Positions 52,399-64,000 of a stretch of 64,000 nucleotides of DNA are shown here, piece after piece. Within the stretch, counting starts at the first letter, position 1, and each line of letters starts with the position of its first letter. The stretch is from Curtobacterium sp. TC1. GTDB taxonomy: Bacteria > Actinomycetota > Actinomycetes > Actinomycetales > Microbacteriaceae. The notes beneath the pieces are model-generated. The model had not been told where the DNA came from, ran no database searches, and saw only the letters and a list, made by a program, of their open reading frames with translations. The stretch spans positions 186,001-250,000 of the forward strand of contig NZ_CP081964.1 of assembly GCF_019844075.1 (NCBI RefSeq), read 5' to 3'. The position numbers were made by a program, and so were the translations under genes.

Positions 52399-53145
52399 TC
52401 AGACAGCGTCGCGGTGCCGGCGCAGGGTGTTGCTGATCACGATGAGGTCGCCCCGGTAGTACCCGACAGCGAACTCGATCGGTCGACCGGTTGCGTCCGT
52501 CAGGAGCCGGTGCTGCACCAGCAGGGGCGCGGACGGCTCGGTGGACAGCAGTTCCGCGACGGCGGGGTCCGCCGGCACGGCGCCGGTGCGCACCGCGGCC
52601 TCACCCAGTTCGATGCCTGCGGCCTCCAGGAAGCCCCACGTGCCGGCATCGACTCCGGGGGTCTCCTCGCCGGGCTCCTGCAGCCCGAGGTCGCTGCGGA
52701 AGTAGCTGGTCCACAGGACGAGCGGGTCGCGCGAGGCCGTGATCCGCTCCCACCGGATGACGGGTGTCCCGAGCGGGACGAGCAGGTTCTCGGCGACCAC
52801 CTGTGGTGCGGGGACGAGCTCCCAGGAGAGTTTGCGGTAGTGGATCGCGTTGCCCTCGACGGTGCTGTGACCTGGTTCGCCGATCGCGCGGAGCTGGTTG
52901 AGGTGGTGGACGATGACGTGCGCCGTCGGTTCGGTCCCTTGACCGCGGACGCGTCGGATGAGGCGCTCCGACACGAGTAGGTCGAGTGCTTCCCGGACGA
53001 CGTTCCGGCCCACCTGGTGCCGTCGGATCAGTTCGTCCTCGGAGGGGAGCGTCGCGACCCCGCCGTCTCCGCGCAGGAGCTCGTCGCGGAGCATGTCGCG
53101 CAGCAGCCGGGCGCGGTGGTGGCGACGTTCGAGGTACTTCGGCAT
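52399..53145 (-). CDS. GntR/HutC-family transcriptional regulator
   Basis: A 248-residue protein with an N-terminal winged helix (ARLLRDMLRDELLRGDGGVATLPSEDELIRRHQVGRNVVREALDLLVSERLIRRV) and a C-terminal UTRA domain (WERITASRDPLVLWTSYFRSDL and PLLVQHRLLTDATGRPIEFAVGYYRGD). It is divergent from the nitrilase operon, with a shared 184-bp intergenic region, so it probably senses the operon's substrate. No palindromic operator was certain. Confidence 0.87.
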   Translation of the reverse strand: MPKYLERRHHRARLLRDMLRDELLRGDGGVATLPSEDELIRRHQVGRNVVREALDLLVSERLIRRVRGQGTEPTAHVIVHHLNQLRAIGEPGHSTVEGNAIHYRKLSWELVPAPQVVAENLLVPLGTPVIRWERITASRDPLVLWTSYFRSDLGLQEPGEETPGVDAGTWGFLEAAGIELGEAAVRTGAVPADPAVAELLSTEPSAPLLVQHRLLTDATGRPIEFAVGYYRGDLIVISNTLRRHRDAV

Positions 53146-53280
53146 GGGACCTCAGGGTCGCACACGCCGGTCGCCGTGGCACGAGGACGCGTGGACTTCG
53201 TGGCGTTGCGTCCTCGGCGGAGCGCGGAAGTCCCGGTCAGGAGGCATTCGCGGACAGGTGCGTGGTGGCTTAGCAGGGGC

Positions 53281-53296
53281 GTAACGAGGGCGTGAC
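53281..53296 (+). promoter_or_regulatory. GlnR-like box before the nitrogen operon
   Basis: GTAAC (53281-53285), six bases, then GTGAC (53292-53296) gives the GTnAC-N6-GTnAC layout of actinobacterial GlnR sites (and of MtrA sites in Streptomyces). It lies 33 bases before the nitrilase ATG. The link to nitrogen control fits the genes downstream, but the short match could arise by chance. Confidence 0.4.
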
Positions 53297-53329
53297 GGAG
53301 TGGAAACCGCCGTCGATCACGCTCTCCTC

Positions 53330-54217
53330 ATGCCCCTCACCACCATCGCCACCGTGTCGATGCCGGTCGTGTACGACCCGGACACGAACCTCACCGTGAT
53401 GCTCGGCCGCATCCGAGATGCCGCCGAGATCGGTGCCGACCTGGTGGTGTTCCCGGAGCAGGCTCTGCAGGGCTACCTCACGGACACGCTCAGTCTGGAC
53501 TTCGAGAACGTCCGCTACCAGCAGCAGAACGCCGAGACGGTACCGAACGGTCCCCGGGTCAGTGCGTTGATCGAGGCTGCGGTCGAGCAGAGCCTGCACG
53601 TCGTGTTCGGGCTGACCGAGCGCGACGACCGGTTCGCTGACGTGCTCTACAACACGGTCGTCCTCGCCGGCCCGGACGGGTACATCGGCCGGTACCGCAA
53701 GGTGCACCAGCCCGGGGACGAGAAGCACGTCTACCACCCCGGTGCGGGGTTCCCCGTGTTCGAGACGGGCATCGGTCGGATCGGCATGCTCATCTGCTAC
53801 GACAAGTGCTTCCCCGAGACGACCAGGGCCCTGGCGCTGCAGGGCGCGGAGATCCTCGTCATGCCGACCGCGTGGGCCTACGACGACGCGACCGAGGCGG
53901 CCGAGGACGACGTCCGCGTCGACCAGTACACGCTCTTCGGCCGCGTCCGGGCGCTGGAGAACCAGGCGTGGATGGTCGAGTCGAACGTCGTGGCCCCGCA
54001 GGGGAACCTGAACTACCACGGGCACTCGCGGATCATCGACCCGAACGGCGTCATCCGCGCCGACACCGGGCCGACCGAGGGCATCGCGTGCGTCACCGTC
54101 GACGTCGAGGACACCATCCTCCGTGCACGCGGCATCGACTACATCGGCTACCACTTCCTCAAGGACTACGTCCCCGTGCCCGCAACAGTCGGGCCGTACG
54201 GGGCAGGAACGGAATGA
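53330..54217 (+). CDS. Carbon-nitrogen hydrolase (nitrilase family)
   Basis: A 295-residue enzyme that cleaves a nitrile, amide or carbamoyl C-N bond. The Glu-Lys-Cys triad is E43 in FPEQAL, K124 in YRKVHQPGDEKH and C156 in ICYDKCFPE. The ATG at 53330 begins MPLTTIATVSMPVVYD, the natural start of the fold. A GTG at 53300 adds ten residues right after the GlnR-like box and is less likely. Its TGA overlaps the ABC ATPase ATG. The substrate is unknown; N-carbamoyl compounds or small amides are likely, given the importer and amidase. Confidence 0.85.
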   Translation: MPLTTIATVSMPVVYDPDTNLTVMLGRIRDAAEIGADLVVFPEQALQGYLTDTLSLDFENVRYQQQNAETVPNGPRVSALIEAAVEQSLHVVFGLTERDDRFADVLYNTVVLAGPDGYIGRYRKVHQPGDEKHVYHPGAGFPVFETGIGRIGMLICYDKCFPETTRALALQGAEILVMPTAWAYDDATEAAEDDVRVDQYTLFGRVRALENQAWMVESNVVAPQGNLNYHGHSRIIDPNGVIRADTGPTEGIACVTVDVEDTILRARGIDYIGYHFLKDYVPVPATVGPYGAGTE

Positions 54218-54999
54218 CCATGTCCCACGCGATCGAGGTCCAGGGCATCGGGAAGCGCTACGGCGACGGCCCGCTCGTGCTGGACGGCATCGACTTCCAC
54301 GCGAAGGCCGGCGAGTTCGTCTCCTTCGTCGGCCCGTCCGGCTGTGGCAAGTCCACCCTCTTCAACATCATCACCGGTCTGCTCGCTCCCACCGAGGGAC
54401 GCGTCCTCGTCAACGGGACCGACACCACCGGCAACCCGAACCGCTCGATCGGGTACGTCCTGCAGAAGGACCTGCTGATGCCGTGGCGGACGATCATGCA
54501 GAACGTGGTCCTCGGCCTCGAGGTGCACGGCGTCCCACGGCGCGAAGCCCGGGAACGGGCGTCGGCGCTGTTCGACACGTACCACCTGTCCGGTCGCGAG
54601 GACAGCTACCCCGGTCAGCTGTCGGGCGGCATGCGGCAGCGCGCGGCGCTGATGCGGACGATGGTCACCGACCCCGACATCATCCTGATGGACGAGGCGT
54701 ACAAGGCCCTCGACTACCCGCTCAAGATCCAGCTCGAGAGCGAACTCATGGACACCGTGAAGGCGGCGGGCAAGACGGTCGTGTTCGTCACCCACGACAT
54801 CGAGGAGGCCGTCACCCTCAGTGACCGCGTCTACGTCCTCAAGGCCCACCCCGGTCAGGTCGTGCAGGAGATCGAGATCGATCTCGGCACCGACAGCCAC
54901 GCCATCAACGAGCGCCGTCTCGCGCCGGCGTTCAACGACTACTACGAGGCGATCTGGCGCTCCATCGGCACCGGGTCCCGGACGGAGCGCGCAGCATGA
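54214..54999 (+). CDS. ABC transporter ATP-binding protein (NitT/TauT type)
   Basis: A 261-residue cytoplasmic ATPase energising import. Walker A is GPSGCGKST, the Q-loop VLQKDLLMPWRT, the signature LSGGMRQRAAL and the H-loop VTHDIEEAV. Walker B and D-loop read LMDEAYKALDYP instead of the usual LMDEPFGALDA; the Pro is replaced by Ala, which is unusual. Start and stop overlap its neighbours by four bases. The permease and binding protein follow. Confidence 0.92.
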   Translation: MTMSHAIEVQGIGKRYGDGPLVLDGIDFHAKAGEFVSFVGPSGCGKSTLFNIITGLLAPTEGRVLVNGTDTTGNPNRSIGYVLQKDLLMPWRTIMQNVVLGLEVHGVPRREARERASALFDTYHLSGREDSYPGQLSGGMRQRAALMRTMVTDPDIILMDEAYKALDYPLKIQLESELMDTVKAAGKTVVFVTHDIEEAVTLSDRVYVLKAHPGQVVQEIEIDLGTDSHAINERRLAPAFNDYYEAIWRSIGTGSRTERAA

Positions 55000-55832
55000 C
55001 CGCTATCCAGATCGAAGAAGCAGCCACCGGGGCGGTCCGGACCGCACCCGAACGTCGCACCCGACCGCGGTCGTCGAGGCGACGCAGCGTCCTCGTGTCG
55101 ATCCAGATCGCGATCGTCGTCGCGTTCCTCGCGGCCTGGCAGATCGGCGCGTCCGCCGGCTGGATCAGCACGTTCCTGTTCTCCAGCCCCGGGCAGATCG
55201 TCACGGTGCTCGCGCAGAACACCGGGACCGGCGAACTGTGGACCGACCTCGGTGTCACGGCGCAGGAGGTGCTCATCGGCTTCGTGATCGGAGCCCTCGG
55301 CGGGTCGCTCCTCGGCCTCCTCCTCTGGTACTCACGGTTCGTCGCCGACTTGTCCGCGCCGTTCATCACCGCGATCGGTTCGATCCCCGTGCTCGCCGTC
55401 GCCCCGATGATGATCATCTGGTTCGGCACCGGCCTGGTGTCGAAGGTCGTCATCGTCGCGTTCTCGTGCGTCATCGTCTCGCTGACGAACGCGTACCGCG
55501 GGGCGCAGAAGGTCGACACGGACCTGCTCGACCTCGTGCGCTCGTTCGGGAGCTCCAAGACCCAGGCGTTCACCAAGGCCATCGTCCCCGGTGCGATGTC
55601 ATGGGTCATCGCCGGCCTCAAGCTCAACGTCGGGTTCGCGATCATCGGCGCCGTCGTGGGGGAGTTCATCTCGTCCTCTGCAGGAGTCGGACACATGATC
55701 GTCACCGGATCGTCGAGCTTCGCCATGAACCAGGTCCTCGCCGGCGTCGTCGTGGTGATGGCGATGGTCCTCGTCTTCGGCCTGCTCATCGACCTGCTGG
55801 AGCGCATCCTGCTCCGGTGGGACCACCGCTGA
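54996..55832 (+). CDS. ABC transporter permease (NitT/TauT type)
   Basis: A 278-residue membrane protein with about six helices. The EAA loop region AYRGAQKVDTDLLDLVRSFGSSKTQAFTKAIVPGAM is typical of nitrate/sulfonate/bicarbonate permeases. The N-terminal 45 residues are basic and cytoplasmic. The ATG at 54996 overlaps the ATPase stop. Confidence 0.92.
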   Translation: MTAIQIEEAATGAVRTAPERRTRPRSSRRRSVLVSIQIAIVVAFLAAWQIGASAGWISTFLFSSPGQIVTVLAQNTGTGELWTDLGVTAQEVLIGFVIGALGGSLLGLLLWYSRFVADLSAPFITAIGSIPVLAVAPMMIIWFGTGLVSKVVIVAFSCVIVSLTNAYRGAQKVDTDLLDLVRSFGSSKTQAFTKAIVPGAMSWVIAGLKLNVGFAIIGAVVGEFISSSAGVGHMIVTGSSSFAMNQVLAGVVVVMAMVLVFGLLIDLLERILLRWDHR

Positions 55833-55906
55833 CCCACACAGCGGATCGCGCCACCCTCCTCACCCGTCCTTCCCCGCACTCCTCCCACCGAAAGGGCTGT
55901 GCCCCC

Positions 55907-56962
55907 ATGCGATCTCCCCTGACCCGACGCGCCCGCGTCCTCACCCTCGCTGCGGCCAGCGCCGCAGCACTCCTCGTCCTCTCCGGATGCGCTTCCGGCT
56001 CCGACGCCGCCGACTCCGCCGACGGCGGAACCCAGGACGTCACCATCAACCAGGCCGTCCAGACCCTCCTGTACCTGCCGCTCTACGTCGCCGAGGAGAA
56101 GGGGTACTTCGAGGACGAGGGTGTGAACGTCACGATCGACACCGGCGGATCCGGCAACGCATCGTTCGCCGCGGTGCTCGGAGGCTCGGCCGGGTTCTCC
56201 ATCCAGGACCCGGTGTTCTCCGCCAAGTCCCACGAGCAGGGCGGTGAAGGCGTCATCGTCGCCGGTGTGCAGAACGCCCCGGCGGAGTTCCTCGTCGGCA
56301 AGGACGGCACGAGCGCCCAGGACGACCCCACGATCCTGAACGGCAAGAAGGTCGTCGTCTCCCCGTCCCCTGACTCGACGTGGGCACTCATGACGAAGAT
56401 GATCGACACCTACGACCTCACGGGCGTCAAGCTCGTCAACGTCTCGCTCGGCAACGAACTCGCCGCCGTCGCGTCCGGTCAAGCCGACTACGCGGTGGTC
56501 CCGGAGCCCTCGGTGAGCCAGGCCGTCGACCAGCAGGACATGCACGTCGTCTACTCGTGGCCCGCCGCCGGAGACGAGTGGAACCCGTTCGCGTTCTCGT
56601 CGCTCACCTCGACGCAGAAGTACGTGAAGGCCAACCCGGAGGCGACGCAGGGCGTCGTCAACGCCTTCCAGCGGGCGTACAACTACATCTACTCGGACGA
56701 AGCCGGAACGATCGAGGTCGCCGAGAAGTACTTCCCGAAACTCGACAAGTCCACGGTGGCCTCGGCCGTCAAGCGTGAGATCGATGCAGACGGCTACCCG
56801 CACGGTGCAACCGTCACCGAGGAGGCATGGGACCACAACCTCCAGCTCGCGGCGGACATCGACAACGTGGAGAAGTACCCCGCCGACGCCACCTCGTACG
56901 AGACGAACGTCGACACCACGTTCTCGGACAAGGCCGAGAAGCAGTATCCCGCGAAGAACTGA
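55907..56962 (+). CDS. ABC transporter substrate-binding lipoprotein (NMT1/SsuA type)
   Basis: A 351-residue lipoprotein. The signal peptide ends in the lipobox LVLSGC with C28 as the lipid-anchored residue. The mature domain has LLYLPLYVAEEKGYFEDEGVNVTIDTGGSGNASFAAVLGG, typical of the NMT1/ThiY-like fold that binds organic nitrogen or pyrimidine-like ligands. Later stretches such as GKKVVVSPSPDSTW fit the family. Ligand identity cannot be read from sequence. It lies 74 bp after the permease. Confidence 0.9.
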   Translation: MRSPLTRRARVLTLAAASAAALLVLSGCASGSDAADSADGGTQDVTINQAVQTLLYLPLYVAEEKGYFEDEGVNVTIDTGGSGNASFAAVLGGSAGFSIQDPVFSAKSHEQGGEGVIVAGVQNAPAEFLVGKDGTSAQDDPTILNGKKVVVSPSPDSTWALMTKMIDTYDLTGVKLVNVSLGNELAAVASGQADYAVVPEPSVSQAVDQQDMHVVYSWPAAGDEWNPFAFSSLTSTQKYVKANPEATQGVVNAFQRAYNYIYSDEAGTIEVAEKYFPKLDKSTVASAVKREIDADGYPHGATVTEEAWDHNLQLAADIDNVEKYPADATSYETNVDTTFSDKAEKQYPAKN

Positions 56963-57025
56963 CCCATCCCACCCTCGGCGGGGCCGCCACCCGGTGGTCC
57001 CGCCGTCCCCCATCAGAGGATCCCC

Positions 57026-57208
57026 ATGGACGACACCGCCCGCCAGGCGCTGACCGACGAATGGGTTGCGCGAGGCCGCTCCATCGCCGCGTTCGTCACC
57101 GCGAACGTCCCATCGGAGGTCGTCCCCGTCGCCGTCTTCGACCACCCGCACACCGACCGGTCGGGCCAGACCGGGGACACCGACGTCGACGACGGAGCTC
57201 GCTCGTGA
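57026..57208 (+). CDS. Small protein before the amidase (possible AtzG-like partner)
   Basis: A 60-residue protein beginning MDDTARQALTDEWVARGRSI. Its TGA overlaps the amidase GTG by four bases, which signals close partnership. Small helical partners of amidases (AtzG of the AtzE complex, DUF4089) have this size and position, but the sequence match is weak. The last 20 residues are acidic and probably unstructured. Confidence 0.55.
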   Translation: MDDTARQALTDEWVARGRSIAAFVTANVPSEVVPVAVFDHPHTDRSGQTGDTDVDDGARS

Positions 57209-58656
57209 CCGATCTGTACCGACCGATCGCTGAACTCGCCGGCATGCTCCGCTGCGGGCAGACCTCCGCCGTCACCCTGACCGAGCAGAGCATCGCCAGC
57301 ATCGACGAGCAGGCGGACCTCGCCGCGTTCGTCCACGTCGACCTCGAGGGCGCCCGGGCAGCCGCAGCCCGCGCCGATGCCGAGCTCGCTGCCGGCGTCG
57401 ACCGCGGACCGCTGCACGGTCTCCCGGTCGCGGTGAAGGACAACATCGACGTGCAAGGCCAGCACACCCGCGCCGGCAGCCTGCTCCTCGGCGACGAACC
57501 CGCTGCGCGGGACGCCACCGTCGTCACCCGCCTCCGCGCCGCCGGCGCGGTGCTCGTCGGCCGGACGAACATGCACGAACTCGCCTGGGGCGGCACCACC
57601 GACAACCCCCACACCGGCCGTGGGCGGAACCCGTGGAACCGTGATCGTGTGCCCGCCGGCTCCTCCGGCGGCTCCGGCATCGCCGTCGCTGCCGGCATGG
57701 TGGTCGCGGCGCTCGGCACGGACACGGGAGGCTCGGTGCGGCTGCCCGCGTCGGTCAACGGTGTCAGTGGGTTGCGCCCCACCATCGGGCGGGTCAGCAA
57801 CGCCGGCGTCGTCCCGCTCGCGTGGACCATGGACACCGTCGGTCCCCTCGCCCGGACGGCGGCGGACACCACCGTCGTGCACGACGCGATCGCCGGGTGG
57901 GACCAGCGCGACCGGACCACGCGGCGTGAGCCGGTCCGCCTGGCCGCCCCGGGCCTCCAGTCCGTCGACCCGGCCGCCCACCTGCGCGGCCTGCGCGTCG
58001 GTGTGATCGCGGACTACGCGCTCGTCGGGAACCAGCCGGACGTCACCGCCGCCGTGCGGGACGCGCTCGACGCGCTGGCCGCAGCAGGCGCCGCGCTCTC
58101 CGAGATCCACGTGCCGGGCGTCGACGAGCTCGTGGACGCGCAACTCGTCGTCGACGCCGTGGAGCCGAGCGCCATGCACCTCGACCTGCTGCGCAGCCGG
58201 CCGGACGACTACGGCGACGACGTGCGCACGCACCTGGAGATCGGACTCCGCTACTCAGGTGTCGAGTACGTGCAGGCGCAACGCTTCCGGGCGTGGTTCC
58301 GCGACGGACTGCTCGAGGCGATGCGCGACGTGGACGTCCTCGTGACCCCGACCCTGCCGTTCACGGCGCTGCCGCACGGTGCGGAGTCCGTCGAACTCGA
58401 CGGACGGCCCGCCTCGTTGACGGCGGGGAACATGCGGTACACGGCGATCGGCAGCATGGCCGGGTTCCCCGGGCTGAGCGTCCCCATCGGTCTCGACCAC
58501 GACGGCCTGCCCATCGGGATGCTGATCACGGCCCGCGCGTTCGACGAGTCAGCAGTCCTGCGTGCTGGACACGGTTTCCAGGCCGTCACGAGTCACCATC
58601 TCCTGCGACCGCTCCATCCGAGCCGGATCAGCGGCACGTGCGCTTCCTCGCTCTGA
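57205..58656 (+). CDS. Amidase (AtzE/GatA-like signature family)
   Basis: A 483-residue amidase. The Ser-cisSer-Lys triad is visible as K74 in PVAVKDNID, a Ser in DTGGSVRLP and the nucleophile in PAGSSGGSG. A Tyr/Arg-rich late region and PTLPFTALPHGAE complete the fold. It hydrolyses an amide to a carboxylate and ammonia. With the nitrilase and ABC importer it fits uptake and breakdown of a nitrogen-rich organic compound. The small overlapping gene upstream suggests an AtzE-type 1-carboxybiuret hydrolase, but the exact substrate is inference. Confidence 0.88.
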   Translation: MTDLYRPIAELAGMLRCGQTSAVTLTEQSIASIDEQADLAAFVHVDLEGARAAAARADAELAAGVDRGPLHGLPVAVKDNIDVQGQHTRAGSLLLGDEPAARDATVVTRLRAAGAVLVGRTNMHELAWGGTTDNPHTGRGRNPWNRDRVPAGSSGGSGIAVAAGMVVAALGTDTGGSVRLPASVNGVSGLRPTIGRVSNAGVVPLAWTMDTVGPLARTAADTTVVHDAIAGWDQRDRTTRREPVRLAAPGLQSVDPAAHLRGLRVGVIADYALVGNQPDVTAAVRDALDALAAAGAALSEIHVPGVDELVDAQLVVDAVEPSAMHLDLLRSRPDDYGDDVRTHLEIGLRYSGVEYVQAQRFRAWFRDGLLEAMRDVDVLVTPTLPFTALPHGAESVELDGRPASLTAGNMRYTAIGSMAGFPGLSVPIGLDHDGLPIGMLITARAFDESAVLRAGHGFQAVTSHHLLRPLHPSRISGTCASSL

Positions 58657-58840
58657 TCGTCGACCAATCGTCACGGTCAGGCAATCCATTCGTAACGCCG
58701 TGTTGCCTTCCCAAGTGGTGCACGATGCAACGCGCGCGTGCCTACCAAGAGCATTCGGATCCCGTCAAGGACCCGTCCTCCACCTGCCTGTCACTGTCAG
58801 GGAGTGGTTGGGCAACCTGAGTAACTGCTGTCATTGCCTC

Positions 58841-58899
58841 ACTGCGGGACGAGGAAGTTTCATGGTCAGTCAACCGACCTCCTCGTCCCGCAGTTTTTC
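58841..58899 (+). terminator. Long-stem terminator in the gap after the amidase gene
   Basis: The gap 58657-58963 shows no gene. It contains a perfect 15-bp inverted repeat (58841-58855 with 58880-58894), a 24-base loop, and the second arm runs into TTTTT. It stops the amidase operon about 185 bases after its end. The long loop and distance could also reflect a small RNA. Confidence 0.7.
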
Positions 58900-58963
58900 C
58901 TGTTCAGAGTGGGGGTTCTCCAGGAGCGCCTTCACCTGACGTTGAACAACTCAGGGGGTCGGC

Positions 58964-59647
58964 ATGAGCATCAGCACCGCAGAGAGACTGAACTTCGACA
59001 GCGCACTCGTGACGGCCGCGGTCCTCCGCGGTGCGATCGAGTTCCCGATCACCGAACGCACGGTCATCGTCAATCTCGCTCAGACGGACGCATTCACCGG
59101 GACGGCACAGCTCGCACCACTCCCGCCGTTGAGCTCGACGATCCTCGTCCACGGCACGGTCACCGGGGAACTGCTGCTGGCACTCTCCGTGCCCACTGCA
59201 GGAGATCAGGAACAACGCGCCCGCGACCTGGGCTGGCTCGACTTCTACGGCGACGGCGGACCGGTCCTGCTCAAGTCTTCGCAAGACACCATCGGAACCG
59301 TCCTCATCGACCGGCGCACCGTCCTGCGTCAGCCGACGGCCTCGTCGACCCCGGAGCGGTTCACGGTGAAGGCGAACCTCTGGTTCAGTCCCAGCGACAC
59401 GGACTGCGGCATCCACAACGTCCATCCGTTCATCGAGGTGCACACGCAGGTCAGCGGGCTCGGGCGCATGCAGAAGTTCGACGACGTAGCACAGTCGTCG
59501 CTGTACGAGGACCAGCAGCTCAGCCCGGGCACCACGAACCCCATCCCGTTCTGCATCGACGTGGACGGCACCTTCACCTACCCGTGCCACCAGTACCGGG
59601 CGGACACCGACTGCATCTGGCTCGCGCTCGAGTACCACGCGGCCTGA
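58964..59647 (+). CDS. Cupin-like protein resembling the aldos-2-ulose dehydratase cupin domain
   Basis: A 227-residue protein with no signal peptide. The conserved-looking core is at about 148-215: H151-N-V-H154-P-F-I-E158-V-H160-T-Q, LGRMQKF, LYEDQQLSPGTTNPIPF and YPCH209QYRADTDCIWLAL. H154, E158, H160 and H209 have the spacing of a cupin metal site. From memory, this pattern (EVHTQ, GRMQKF, HQY, DCIWLALE) resembles the C-terminal cupin of fungal aldos-2-ulose dehydratase. No search was possible. The ATG has a CAGGGGG ribosome site. It heads the last gene cluster. Confidence 0.6.
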   Translation: MSISTAERLNFDSALVTAAVLRGAIEFPITERTVIVNLAQTDAFTGTAQLAPLPPLSSTILVHGTVTGELLLALSVPTAGDQEQRARDLGWLDFYGDGGPVLLKSSQDTIGTVLIDRRTVLRQPTASSTPERFTVKANLWFSPSDTDCGIHNVHPFIEVHTQVSGLGRMQKFDDVAQSSLYEDQQLSPGTTNPIPFCIDVDGTFTYPCHQYRADTDCIWLALEYHAA

Positions 59648-59732
59648 CTCCCAGCACCTCCCACCCTCATCGACGCCGGCCGGTTCGTCACCGGATCCTT
59701 CGGCGTTCCCGAAAACAGGCAGGAGCACCACC

Positions 59733-60899
59733 ATGAAGACCATCGGCATCGTCTTCGGCACTCGACCCGAAGCCGTCAAGTACGCACCGCTCATCCACGC
59801 GCTCCGCTCCGATGAGCGTTTCCGTACCGTGCTCATCTCGACCGGACAGCACCGCGAGATGCTCACCAGCACCCTCGAAGAGTTCGGGATCACCCCGGAC
59901 GTCGACCTCGCCGTCATGAAGGACGGGCAAACCCTCTCCGAGGTCACCCACCGGATCCTCGAGGGCCTGTGCTCCGGTGACCACCTCACCGGCCTCGACG
60001 CGGTCCTCGTCCACGGCGACACCGCAACCACACTCGCCGGCGCACTCGCTGGCCTGCATGCACAGGTGCCCGTCATCCACGTCGAGGCAGGTCTGCGATC
60101 CGGGAACAACTCGTCCCCGTTCCCCGAGGAGGCCAACCGGAAGCTCGTCGGTCAGATCGCCGCTCTCCACCTCGCGCCGACGCCCGGGAACCACGCGAAC
60201 CTCATCCGTGAGGGCATCAAGGAAAGCGCGATCACGGTCACGGGGAACACGATCGTCGATGCCCTCGCCTGGGGGATGCAGAACCTCCGCTCCTACGGCG
60301 ATCCGCGTCTGGAAGACCTCGACACCGATCCGCGACGTGTCATCCTCGCCACCACGCACCGCCGCGAGAGTCATGGTCAGCCCATGCAGGAGATCGCCGA
60401 GGCGCTCGCTGACATCGCCACTCGTGATGACGTCCGCATCGTCGTGCCGTTGCACCTGAACCCCAAGGTCCGATCGGTGATGCTCCCGATCCTGTCGGGC
60501 ATCGACAACGTCGATCTGGTCGATCCCCTGCCCTACCTGTCGTTCTGCCGTCTGCTGCGTCGCAGCGACATCATCCTCTCGGACAGCTCCGGCGCCGAGG
60601 AAGAAGGCCCAGCGCTCGGGAAGCCGACCCTCGTGCTCCGCGAGATCACCGAGCGAAGCGAGTCGATCCTCACCGGGTCGTCCCGCCTCGTCAGTCGGCA
60701 TCGCGGTCAGATCGTTGCCGAGGTGCAACGGCTCCTCAACGACCACGAGGCGTACGCAGAGATGTCGAACGCGATCAACCCGTACGGCGACGGCCGCGCG
60801 ACCGATCGGACCATCGCTGCGATCGCGAACTACTTCGGGATGGGACCGGCCGTCATGCCGTTCGTTCCCGGTGCCGACGTCGTGCCGTCACTGGCATGA
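59733..60899 (+). CDS. wecB: UDP-N-acetylglucosamine 2-epimerase (non-hydrolysing)
   Basis: A 388-residue GT-B-fold enzyme interconverting UDP-GlcNAc and UDP-ManNAc. It has GIVFGTRPEAVKYAPLIHAL, HGDTATTLAGALAGLHAQVPVIHVEAGLRSG, FPEEANRKLVGQIAALHLAPT, and the late DSSGAEEEGPALGKPTLVLREITERSE. The usual active-site Asp/Glu/His positions are present. The neighbouring cluster does not look like a cell-wall or capsule locus, so the gene may provide a modified sugar substrate. The TGA overlaps the next ATG. Confidence 0.92.
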   Translation: MKTIGIVFGTRPEAVKYAPLIHALRSDERFRTVLISTGQHREMLTSTLEEFGITPDVDLAVMKDGQTLSEVTHRILEGLCSGDHLTGLDAVLVHGDTATTLAGALAGLHAQVPVIHVEAGLRSGNNSSPFPEEANRKLVGQIAALHLAPTPGNHANLIREGIKESAITVTGNTIVDALAWGMQNLRSYGDPRLEDLDTDPRRVILATTHRRESHGQPMQEIAEALADIATRDDVRIVVPLHLNPKVRSVMLPILSGIDNVDLVDPLPYLSFCRLLRRSDIILSDSSGAEEEGPALGKPTLVLREITERSESILTGSSRLVSRHRGQIVAEVQRLLNDHEAYAEMSNAINPYGDGRATDRTIAAIANYFGMGPAVMPFVPGADVVPSLA

Positions 60900-62119
60900 C
60901 CCGGCCGTCGACCGCACGGGTCCCGGTGGGGCTCGTCGCGTTGGCGCTCGGCGGGTTCGGCATCGGGTTGACGGAGTTCGTCATCCTCGGACTCCTCCCG
61001 GAGGTCGCGACCGACTTCGCCGTCACCATCCCGCAGGCCGGGTTCCTCGTCTCCGGTTACGCGATCAGTGTCGCGTTCGGTGGAGTGTTCGTCACTGCAG
61101 CCACCGCATCGATGCGGCCGAAGACGGTGTTGTGCGTACTGATGGTCCTCTTCATCGTCGGCAACCTCCTCTCCGCACTCGCCGGCGGCTACGGGGCGAT
61201 GCTCGTCGGGCGGATCGTCGCGGCCATGTGTCACGGAGCCTTCTTCGGGATCGGTTCGGTCCTCGCCGCGTCGCTCGTCCCGTCGAACCGGAAGGCGCAG
61301 GCCATCTCGATCATGTTCCTCGGGCTGACCGTCGCGAACGTGCTCGGCGTCCCGCTCGGGACGTTCCTCGGGCAGGCGTACGGGTGGCGGTCGACGTTCT
61401 GGACCATCACGGCCATCGGCGTGGTCGCGCTCGTCGGGCTCCTGGTCTTCATCCCCGCCCGGGCAGCGGAACGACGACCCGCGGGCCAGCTCCGCCGCGA
61501 GCTCGCCGCGTTCGGCAACGGGCAGGTGTGGCTGTCGATCCTCGTCACGGTCTTCGGGTTCGGAGCGATGTTCGGCACGTTCACCTACATCGCCCCGATC
61601 CTCACCGACGTCGCCGGCGTCCCCGCGACAGCGATCCCGTGGATGCTCGTGCTGTTCGGCTGCGGACTCTTCATCGGCAACCTCGTCGGGGGTCGCGCCG
61701 CCGACCGGCACCTCGATCGAACCCTCCTCATCCTGCTGAGCGCACTCACCATGGTCCTCATCGGATTCGCAATCGTCGCCGGGAACCCGTGGAGTGCCGG
61801 GGCCGCGCTGTTCCTCCTCGGTGCCGTCGGCTTCGCATCCGTTCCGGGGATGCAGATGCGCGTCCTCGAATTCGCGTCCACCGCACCGACTCTCGCGTCG
61901 GGCGTGAACATCTCCGCGTTCAACGCGGGGAACGCCATCGGCGCCTGGCTCGGCGGACTCACCATCACCGCCGGTCTCGGCTACCGGTCTCCGATCACGG
62001 TCGGCGCCGTCCTCGCGGCGACCGCGACGACCCTCATGGTCGCTGCGGCGACCACGCACCGACGTCGCACCGCCGTCGCGACGCCGGCTGCACCACGCAC
62101 CGTCACCATCCCCTCCTGA
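60896..62119 (+). CDS. MFS transporter (DHA1-like efflux family)
   Basis: A 407-residue permease with twelve helices. GIGLTEFVILGLLPEVATDFAVTIPQAGFLVSGYA is the typical start of the DHA1/AraJ-like subfamily, followed by GRIVAAMCHGAFFGIGSVLAA. Such proteins export drugs, sugars or metabolites. It is translationally coupled to wecB by a four-base overlap, so it probably exports a cluster product or a related sugar. Confidence 0.88.
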   Translation: MTRPSTARVPVGLVALALGGFGIGLTEFVILGLLPEVATDFAVTIPQAGFLVSGYAISVAFGGVFVTAATASMRPKTVLCVLMVLFIVGNLLSALAGGYGAMLVGRIVAAMCHGAFFGIGSVLAASLVPSNRKAQAISIMFLGLTVANVLGVPLGTFLGQAYGWRSTFWTITAIGVVALVGLLVFIPARAAERRPAGQLRRELAAFGNGQVWLSILVTVFGFGAMFGTFTYIAPILTDVAGVPATAIPWMLVLFGCGLFIGNLVGGRAADRHLDRTLLILLSALTMVLIGFAIVAGNPWSAGAALFLLGAVGFASVPGMQMRVLEFASTAPTLASGVNISAFNAGNAIGAWLGGLTITAGLGYRSPITVGAVLAATATTLMVAAATTHRRRTAVATPAAPRTVTIPS

Positions 62120-62135
62120 ACCGGAAGGCACCCTC

Positions 62136-63398
62136 ATGACACTCGACAGACTCCGCACCGCAGCACCGACGTTGGCCGTCACCCCTCCGACCTTCGACTC
62201 GGAGACCGTCACCGACTTCCTCCGCGACGGGTACTGGCTGGAAGCAGCCGACGTCGACGGCGACGGCAACCTCGACCTCATCGGCTACGGCCTGACCGTC
62301 GGGGAGATCTACTGGTACAAGTCCCCGACGTGGGAGAAGCACCTCGTCGTCGACAAGATCAAGGAACCAGTCGGCGCCGGTACCGGCGACATCACCGGCA
62401 ACGGGCTCCCCGACCTGGTCGTCTGCTACCAGCTGTACGGCCCCGGCGGCACGATCCACCACGCCGACGGAGCGGGTGGAAAGATCGACTGGCTCGAGAA
62501 CCCGGGCGACCCGGCCACGAGCACGGAGAACTGGAAGCGACACTACGTCGGCAGGGCGACCGGGATGCACCGGCTCCGCGTCGGGCACTTCTCCCGAACC
62601 GACCGCATCCAGATCATCGGCTTCCCGATCGTCGCCGTCGAGGACGTCCACGCGGTCCTCCCGGTGATGCTGTTCACCCAGCCTGACGATCCGACCCAGG
62701 AGTGGGACGCCGAAGTGATCAGTCGGGCCGACTTCCGGATGATCCACGGCGTCGCCAGCAAGCCCGGCCTCATCCCCGGCTCCTCCCTGGACACCATCCT
62801 CATGGCCTCGGACGAAGGAGTGACCTGGCTCTACCACGACGAGGCAACCGGGCAGTTCGCCTGGGAGCACATCGGTGACGGTGAATCGAGCCAGTTCGAG
62901 CAGACCACCTTCAAGGGCTCCGGCGACGTCGACGGCGGACGGATCGGCGACGATCCCCTCGCGTACGTCGCAGCCATCGAACCGTTCCACGGCAACACCG
63001 TCGCCGTCTACACGCGCACCACCACAGACGCTGCAGCCTCGACGTGGCAGCGGCACCTCCTCGACATCTACGGCGACCCGAACGAGAACGGTGAAGGACC
63101 TGGCCACACGGTCATGTGCCGCGACTTCGACGGCGACGGCGACGACGAGTTCCTCATCGGCCTCCGCGGGCCGGACCCCTGGCAGGGCGCCTACTACTAC
63201 AAGGCGGTCGACCTGGAGAAGGGGCTGTTCGTGAAGTGGAAGGTGTCCGGCGAATCCATCGCCCGCATCGTCGCCGGTGACTTCGACGGGCGCGGAGTCG
63301 TCGACTTCGCCACGATCTCGTACTCGGTGCCGCACTACTTCGTGGCACCGAAGGCCGAGATCACCCTCCACCGCAACCGCACCCCACAGGAAGGCTGA
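62136..63398 (+). CDS. FG-GAP/VCBS-repeat propeller protein (aldos-2-ulose dehydratase-like)
   Basis: A 420-residue protein without signal peptide, built from repeated beta-propeller blades with Ca-binding loops such as DVDGDGNLDLIGYG (about 39-52), GDITGNGLPDLVV, DFDGDGDDEFLIGL and GDFDGRGVVDF. Local strings GEIYWYKSP, WLENPGDP and HYVGRATGMHRLRVG resemble the N-terminal propeller of fungal aldos-2-ulose dehydratase, which carries both a propeller and cupins in one chain. Here the cupin-like part is encoded separately at 58964. This recollection needs a search. It may act on a ketosugar. Confidence 0.65.
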   Translation: MTLDRLRTAAPTLAVTPPTFDSETVTDFLRDGYWLEAADVDGDGNLDLIGYGLTVGEIYWYKSPTWEKHLVVDKIKEPVGAGTGDITGNGLPDLVVCYQLYGPGGTIHHADGAGGKIDWLENPGDPATSTENWKRHYVGRATGMHRLRVGHFSRTDRIQIIGFPIVAVEDVHAVLPVMLFTQPDDPTQEWDAEVISRADFRMIHGVASKPGLIPGSSLDTILMASDEGVTWLYHDEATGQFAWEHIGDGESSQFEQTTFKGSGDVDGGRIGDDPLAYVAAIEPFHGNTVAVYTRTTTDAAASTWQRHLLDIYGDPNENGEGPGHTVMCRDFDGDGDDEFLIGLRGPDPWQGAYYYKAVDLEKGLFVKWKVSGESIARIVAGDFDGRGVVDFATISYSVPHYFVAPKAEITLHRNRTPQEG

Positions 63399-63401
63399 CC
63401 C

Positions 63402-64000
63402 ATGCCGACCACGACCAGTACCGACGCTCCGTCGCCGAAGAGCAACGTCGGACGACGCGCCTTCCTGTTCGGCTCCGCCGGCACCGCGGCCGCGGGCGCG
63501 ATCGTCGCGCTCGAGAACAGCAACCCGCTCGCGGCGTTCGCTTCGGAAGCGACGGCCGCAGCAGGGAACGCGAGTGCTCCAACGGGTGCCGTGATCGCGC
63601 CAGGTGATTCCCGGTACCTGGACATGATGACGGGCAACAACGTCCGCTTCGTAGCGAAGCCCGATTACGTCCGGCTCATCGGCTCGGCCAAGGACGCCGA
63701 AGCGGCAGTGCGGACCGCCGTCCGCGCAGGCAAGAAGGTGTCCGTCCGGAGTGGCGGGCACTGCTTCGCCGACTTCGTGTGCAACCCGGACGTCGAGGTC
63801 ATCCTCGACCTGTCCACGATGACCGACGTCTCGTACGACCCGGAGATGCGCGCCTTCGCCGTCGAACCCGGCGCTCGGCTGCTGAACGTGTACGAGAAGC
63901 TCTTCAAAGGGTGGGGTGTCACCATCCCGGGCGGGATCTGTTACAGCGTGGGGGCGGGCGGGCACATCGCCGGAGGTGGTTACGGCCTCCTCACCCGAGC
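63402..64000 (+). CDS. Tat-exported FAD-dependent oxidase, BBE type (3' end outside window)
   Basis: The first 199 residues are visible. A Tat-type start NVGRRAFLFGSAGTAAAGA leads to the PCMH FAD-binding fold. H120 in RSGGHCFADF and C180 in GGICYSVGAGGHIAGGGYG are the His and Cys that form the bicovalent FAD link in berberine-bridge-type oxidases, such as glucooligosaccharide oxidases. The ATG at 63402 has an AGGAAGG ribosome site and lies three bases after the propeller gene stop. Export by Tat and flavin link fit extracellular oxidation of a sugar or small alcohol. The C-terminal domain is not visible. Confidence 0.88.
   Translation, partial: MPTTTSTDAPSPKSNVGRRAFLFGSAGTAAAGAIVALENSNPLAAFASEATAAAGNASAPTGAVIAPGDSRYLDMMTGNNVRFVAKPDYVRLIGSAKDAEAAVRTAVRAGKKVSVRSGGHCFADFVCNPDVEVILDLSTMTDVSYDPEMRAFAVEPGARLLNVYEKLFKGWGVTIPGGICYSVGAGGHIAGGGYGLLTR

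Follow-up and report, generated by a model that had tools for sequence, protein, structure and literature searches.

A putative split aldos-2-ulose dehydratase beside a WecB-like enzyme in Curtobacterium: a possible sugar-derived natural-product pathway

The DNA analysed here is a 64,000-nucleotide stretch of Curtobacterium sp. TC1 (contig NZ_CP081964.1, positions 186,001 to 250,000; hereafter the window), in which five genes run on the + strand from 58964 to 64000 with intergenic gaps of -4 to 85 bases (Table 1). Two of them encode a cupin protein and a beta-propeller protein that an earlier reading of the letters (the original prediction) had likened to the two halves of the fungal enzyme aldos-2-ulose dehydratase (AUDH). 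The genes named there were confirmed at the positions given, all on the + strand. The cupin and propeller genes are separated by 2488 bases, and in the window and 3 other Curtobacterium loci it is wecB and the MFS gene that stand between them. The window propeller is 90-94% identical to the propellers of its nearest named relatives, which are Curtobacterium.

Table 1. Genes of the run, in window coordinates
Feature	Position	Strand	Length (aa)	Assignment	Predicted role
Cupin protein	58964..59647	+	227	Remote homologue of AUDH cupin part	Predicted isomerase half
wecB (WecB-like UDP-sugar 2-epimerase homologue)	59733..60899	+	388	PF02350, TIGR00236	Predicted UDP-sugar lyase feeding the pathway
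MFS transporter	60896..62119	+	407	PF07690, 155 bits	Predicted exporter
AUDH beta-propeller protein	62136..63398	+	420	PF22301	Predicted dehydratase half
BBE-type FAD oxidase, start	63402..64000 (on to 65141, window numbering)	+		Twin-arginine-like leader	Predicted tailoring oxidase
Acyltransferase-3, sixth gene of the run	Starts L002:11139, just beyond the window (L002:11142 = 65141)				

The Pfam model PF22301 (AUDH_beta_propeller) matches the propeller protein with 181.5 bits against a cut-off of 27, and the protein is homologous to Phanerochaete chrysosporium AUDH across its entire length, both by sequence and by structure. At 58 positions bacterial and AUDH-type rows agree in their commonest letter, which reaches at least 97% among the 45 bacterial rows and at least 85% among the 31 AUDH-type rows; four histidines are among them (145, 204, 285 and 324, corresponding to AUDH 155, 215, 295 and 337). 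The fold of the cupin protein corresponds to AUDH residues 454-734, aligned over 211 residues by structure, and profile-profile comparison also ties the cupin to AUDH, so that both proteins point to the same enzyme, as the original prediction had proposed. Cupin and AUDH have a like motif, made up of paired H, F-x-E-x-H, G and M, Y-P-x-H, and W. The model PF18637 (AUDH_Cupin) matches 66 of 70 cupin homologues at E up to 1 (best 6.9e-6), and 3 of 116 homologues carry a precomputed AUDH_Cupin label. In NCBIfam, no model matches either the cupin or the propeller protein at E up to 1. The prediction had also described the enzyme as possibly split. The gene layout fits this description, with two genes in place of a single chain of propeller, cupin and a further C-terminal part; the structure and profile comparisons showed no counterpart of that last part of AUDH (beyond about residue 735).

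The linkage of the two genes was followed in 80 loci, which are the best 80 of 117 propeller-profile relatives, matched with two short peptide patterns and limited to one genome per species, a choice that may miss other forms. The cupin profile was found in 68 of these 80 propeller loci, which bears out the conserved co-occurrence that the original prediction had looked for; the two matches lie no more than 300 bases apart in 47 of the 68 and on the same strand in 65. At the family level, the cupin and propeller profiles each match in 2 of 299 genomes, the same two in both cases, while the remaining 297 match neither, and at the class level the propeller was found in 2 of 394 genomes and the cupin in 1, with the genome-level cupin searches scoring only part of each genome's first-look candidates. 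Cupin-propeller co-occurrence in the family genomes exceeds chance. The cupin and propeller proteins very probably work together as a split AUDH.

The cupin-propeller pair is itself tracked by one of two further genes, a WecB-like gene in 60 of the 68 loci or a GH31 gene in the other 8, and the two never occur together. Among the 12 loci without a cupin, 8 carry a pyranose oxidase and 4 have none of these three feeders. NCBIfam was run on one member each of the GH31 (L078), pyranose oxidase (L059), IolE-like (L082) and GalU-type (L044) genes, and the PDB was searched with those of L078 and L059. The GH31 loci (L067-L073 and L078) come from cyanobacteria, Paenibacillus and a Bacteroidota metagenome-assembled genome, with propeller, cupin and GH31 close together. 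The GH31 protein of L078 matched alpha-1,4-glucan lyase 2x2h (E 5.7e-55) and has in common with it a GL-x-FVWQDMT-x-PA stretch where the glucosidase shown has W-x-DMNE; its top PDB row by E-value is maltase-glucoamylase (7.3e-57), and its best NCBIfam model, alpha-glucosidase MalA, scores 228 bits (cut-off 800). The GH31 loci are predicted to encode a bacterial starch-to-microthecin pathway. The oxidase of L059 scored 543.5 bits with TIGR02462 (pyranose_ox), slightly below the cut-off of 544.9, and matched pyranose oxidase 9fl2 at E 8.4e-117. All 8 pyranose-oxidase loci (L053, L059-L062, L077, L081 and L082) contain an IolE-like gene, that of L082, the only member tested, scoring above the TIGR04379 cut-off, and 7 of the 8 have a GH15-type gene. 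Three of the four feeder-less loci (L075, L076 and L083) carry another GMC oxidase and an IolE-like gene, the GMC profile matching L082 too, and the fourth, L030, is truncated 175 bases before the propeller.

Loci of the WecB type occur in 23 genera, which belong to Actinomycetota and Pseudomonadota. Those of the GH31 type come from 8 genera or unnamed lineages (Cyanobacteriota, Bacillota and Bacteroidota), and those of the pyranose-oxidase type from 4 genera or unnamed lineages (Actinomycetota and Chloroflexota). On a quick propeller tree (67 rows, with every second WecB-type locus included) starred branches force every one of the 3 changes that the pyranose-oxidase type requires, and five Streptomyces pyranose-oxidase loci are nested in a branch otherwise made up of WecB-type rows. 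This placement suggests repeated joint exchange of feeder and cupin, and the pyranose-oxidase type may itself have arisen more than once. Twelve rows labelled eukaryotic fall on one side of a branch with a support of 99, one of them (P0305) being of unknown source. Two single-chain propeller-cupin proteins, P0302 from a rotifer (Rotaria; 745 residues) and P0305 (688 residues), both shorter than AUDH, were placed between the fungal and bacterial rows. In the proteobacterial loci L064, L065, L074 and L080, a glutathione S-transferase-like gene was seen by eye directly ahead of the propeller.

The WecB-like protein of the window matches TIGR00236 with 398 bits against a cut-off of 210. A quick tree places the 61 cluster WecB proteins, the window's included, on one side of a branch (SH-aLRT 100) and 30 other WecB-like proteins on the other. 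Since the protein is the only TIGR00236 match in its genome and belongs to a clade of its own, the possibility that it is the housekeeping WecB was rejected. The catalytic residues D95, E117, E131, H213, E295, E296, E312 and R313 (E. coli numbers) are each kept in 61 of 61 cluster proteins or in 60 with one gap, the gap probably being that of L063, which is filled in 27% of columns; the residue roles are taken from excerpts of PMC8869731, and the number matching is our own. Superimposed on these are substitutions found in 0 of 15 close homologues, namely G291 to S, A297 to G and V304 to T in 61 of 61 and T97 to A in 59 of 61. The phosphate-binding motif D-S-G-G reads D-S-S-G in all 61, its G being retained in 15 of 15 close and 13 of 14 remote WecB homologues (one gap). 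The residue matching G291 in KasQ (again by our own numbering) is described as touching the beta-phosphate of UDP in the excerpted text of PMC8869731. According to the same text, KasQ is a WecB homologue of kasugamycin biosynthesis that yields UDP-ManNAc and then increasing amounts of 2-acetamidoglucal and UDP.

The chemistry of AUDH and of glucan lyase suggests how these genes could be connected. Glucan lyase acts by elimination at C1-C2. AUDH dehydrates aldos-2-uloses or 1,5-anhydrofructose, its products being ascopyrone M and, by isomerisation, microthecin; the PDB title of the AUDH structure entry also names ascopyrone M. The first half-reaction of WecB is likewise an elimination, at the UDP-sugar, akin to that of glucan lyase (PMC8869731, in part). 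The GH31 and WecB genes adjoin the same cupin-propeller pair and are mutually exclusive; mainly on this ground, we propose that the WecB-like enzyme supplies the pair with a sugar of the anhydrofructose type. Of the WecB reaction it would carry out the first half alone, eliminating UDP from a UDP-hexose, and from UDP-glucose would give 2-hydroxyglucal, the enol form of 1,5-anhydro-D-fructose. By homology, the propeller would then remove water to leave an ascopyrone-M-like enone, from which the cupin would form a microthecin-like pyranone by isomerisation; propeller and cupin probably act as one complex, much like both parts of the fungal chain. Finally, the acyltransferase-3 would acylate the product, the Tat-type BBE oxidase would oxidise it, and the MFS transporter would export it.

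We put at roughly 0.55 the probability that a two-subunit AUDH relative forms the core of a small pathway, encoded by the operon, to a sugar-derived natural product. Its substrate is probably an anhydro-sugar of the 1,5-anhydrofructose kind, and the chances are even that the WecB-like enzyme is the source of that sugar through UDP elimination. More tentatively, the WecB-like proteins could be a new enzyme type, a UDP-sugar lyase making 1,5-anhydrofructose or its 2-acetamido analogue, in which case bacteria would supply one AUDH core from three feeders (UDP-sugar lyase, glucan lyase and pyranose oxidase) and make pyranone natural products of a widespread, undescribed class. The sugar may carry either oxygen or N-acetyl at C2.

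If the nitrogen version applied, the WecB-like enzyme would turn UDP-GlcNAc into 2-acetamidoglucal, the enamide analogue of 1,5-anhydrofructose, and the split AUDH would dehydrate it to a nitrogen-bearing pyranone. Retention of the catalytic residues of UDP-GlcNAc epimerases is consistent with this, as is the release by KasQ of 2-acetamidoglucal and not 2-hydroxyglucal (excerpts of PMC8869731); we nevertheless regard it as unlikely, since the GH31 type of the same pair implies oxygen at the sugar C2, and a GalU-type gene stands in 17 of the 60 WecB loci (0 of the 20 others). That the genes serve to degrade or detoxify 1,5-anhydrofructose or similar sugars would suit GH31 loci that could break down starch or glycogen, and water loss from a sugar may equally be a degradative step; the presence of MFS genes in 50 of the 80 loci and acyltransferases in 46, together with the sporadic spread of the WecB type (two phyla), better fits the making and export of a product, which leaves a catabolic role quite improbable. 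The original prediction had the Tat-type BBE oxidase make an aldos-2-ulose on which the AUDH halves act. BBE-type genes do occur in 46 of the 80 loci, all of the WecB type, and a pyranose oxidase accompanies the propeller in other loci. No BBE-type gene was found, however, in 14 of the 60 WecB loci (11 of them stretches of more than 20 kb) or in any of the 20 others, including the 8 with GH31; the pyranose-oxidase loci lack the cupin; and the oxidase bears a Tat-like leader, while none was seen by eye on the cupin and propeller proteins. On this distribution the oxidase was rejected as the feeder, and we hold such a model to be very improbable.

A number of results weigh against the proposed pathway or parts of it. 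For the cupin, PF18637 gave 14.5 bits against a cut-off of 25, and the spacing between the first two histidines and the F-x-E-x-H stretch differs from that of AUDH. A sequence search of the PDB with its profile gave no chain at E up to 1, phmmer against the PDB returned only PrgH (E 0.6-0.65), and a wider bacterial cupin hidden Markov model matched 2 of 81 proteins (P0237-P0317, a set that includes bacterial propellers without a cupin) at E 2.4e-6 and 0.013, missing AUDH itself (P0237). In a plain Foldseek search AUDH ranked only 44th by E-value, yet with the highest TM-score shown; with that reserve, neither outcome that the original prediction had named as speaking against it, best structural matches to unrelated cupins and generic FG-GAP proteins or a lack of co-occurrence of the two genes, was borne out. 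The sub-threshold Pfam score and the Foldseek rank would suit an unrelated generic cupin and FG-GAP protein of superficial likeness. This we consider extremely improbable, in view of the structural and profile-profile matches of the cupin and the linkage in 68 of 80 loci; for the propeller, it is already refuted by homology to AUDH. On the feeder side, the feeder and neighbour profiles (E up to 1e-20) were built from these same 80 loci, the GMC profile also matches two WecB-type loci (L016 and L020), and the WecB tree drew long-branch warnings, one at the very join of the cluster clade. No GalU-type gene was found in the other 43 WecB loci, although some of these are truncated stretches; of the 17 matches, 3 cover only part of the profile and 2 fall on the opposite strand. 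UDP-glucose as the substrate of the WecB-like enzyme is a guess, since KasQ binds it (dissociation constant 9.5 uM) without turnover (PMC8869731, in part). Genome G197 (L114), the exception at the class level, has a propeller without a cupin or any feeder match at E 1e-10, next to ThuA-like, GatZ-like, luciferase-like and MFS genes; the propeller therefore has other settings too.

The remaining neighbours look like tailoring and export functions. Besides the BBE oxidase, MFS and acyltransferase genes, an SDR gene is a variable neighbour in 38 of the 80 loci. The GalU-type match starts no more than 10 bases after the end of the propeller match in L035, L038 and L044, the gene of L044 scoring 325.8 bits with the galU model against a cut-off of 326.8. 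In Curtobacterium sp. TC1 the full oxidase, completed beyond the window, has 579 residues and matches PF01565 (73.1 bits, cut-off 26.4) and PF08031 BBE (55.3, cut-off 20.6), with TAT_signal below its cut-off at 13.5 bits. It is followed by the acyltransferase-3 gene, an oppositely oriented gene for an XRE-type regulator that carries an MLTR ligand domain, and a second MFS-like frame. The best NCBIfam match of the MFS protein is Cmx/CmrA, with 336 bits under a cut-off of 400. A scan of 58600-59800 for sigma-70-type promoters returned 0 sites and is uninformative, as only 0.1 were expected. Upstream, at 52399-58656, lie a GntR-like regulator on the - strand and a carbon-nitrogen hydrolase (PF00795; no NCBIfam model above cut-off), together with frames that by eye resemble an ABC ATPase, a permease, a binding protein and an amidase; this run looks like a separate operon for the uptake and use of amides or nitriles.

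Microthecin is known from fungi and also from a red alga (PMC6003095), whereas the chemistry of AUDH is to our knowledge known only from fungi. Among the matches listed in the open-access literature searched, none described a bacterial AUDH pathway, the split form or the link with WecB. The domain call itself is not new, because databases already name some bacterial propellers AUDH beta-propeller domain and the VCBS survey PMC8023676, in the part available, places AUDH among VCBS-like propellers. A two-gene bacterial form tied to a re-tooled epimerase in 23 genera would give access to sugar-derived antibiotics of a class so far unexplored, and provide a new enzymatic route from UDP-sugars into 1,5-anhydrofructose. 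The separate, expressible halves could also settle which part of AUDH dehydrates and which isomerises, a division to which the presence of the cupin with WecB or GH31, and its absence with pyranose oxidase, offers a genetic clue.

Compared with P. chrysosporium AUDH (4a7k, 4a7y, 4a7z; P0237), the window system has whole-length propeller homology with its 58 conserved positions, the 211-residue cupin fold, and the H/E/H and YPxH motifs in common. It differs in being encoded by two genes, in a cupin of 227 residues against about 280 in AUDH, in the missing counterpart beyond about residue 735 and in its place in a run with a sugar-nucleotide enzyme. That enzyme has TIGR00236 and the catalytic residues in common with KasQ and the non-hydrolysing UDP-GlcNAc 2-epimerases WecB/MnaA, and is set apart from them by its own clade, its diagnostic substitutions and its steady partnership with the AUDH pair in 60 loci. 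The alpha-1,4-glucan lyase of a red alga makes 1,5-anhydrofructose, the microthecin precursor (excerpt of PMC6003095), starch and glycogen being converted by such lyases (excerpt of PMC2974679). Eight bacterial loci with propeller, cupin and GH31 resemble that system, the one tested having the GL-x-FVWQDMT-x-PA stretch, whereas the window carries a WecB-like gene where GH31 would stand. The combination of pyranose 2-oxidase and AUDH is the cortalcerone route (cited in the available part of PMC11650716); it has its likeness in the eight bacterial loci with a propeller and a pyranose-oxidase-type gene, which differ from the window in having no cupin and in the presence of an IolE-like gene.

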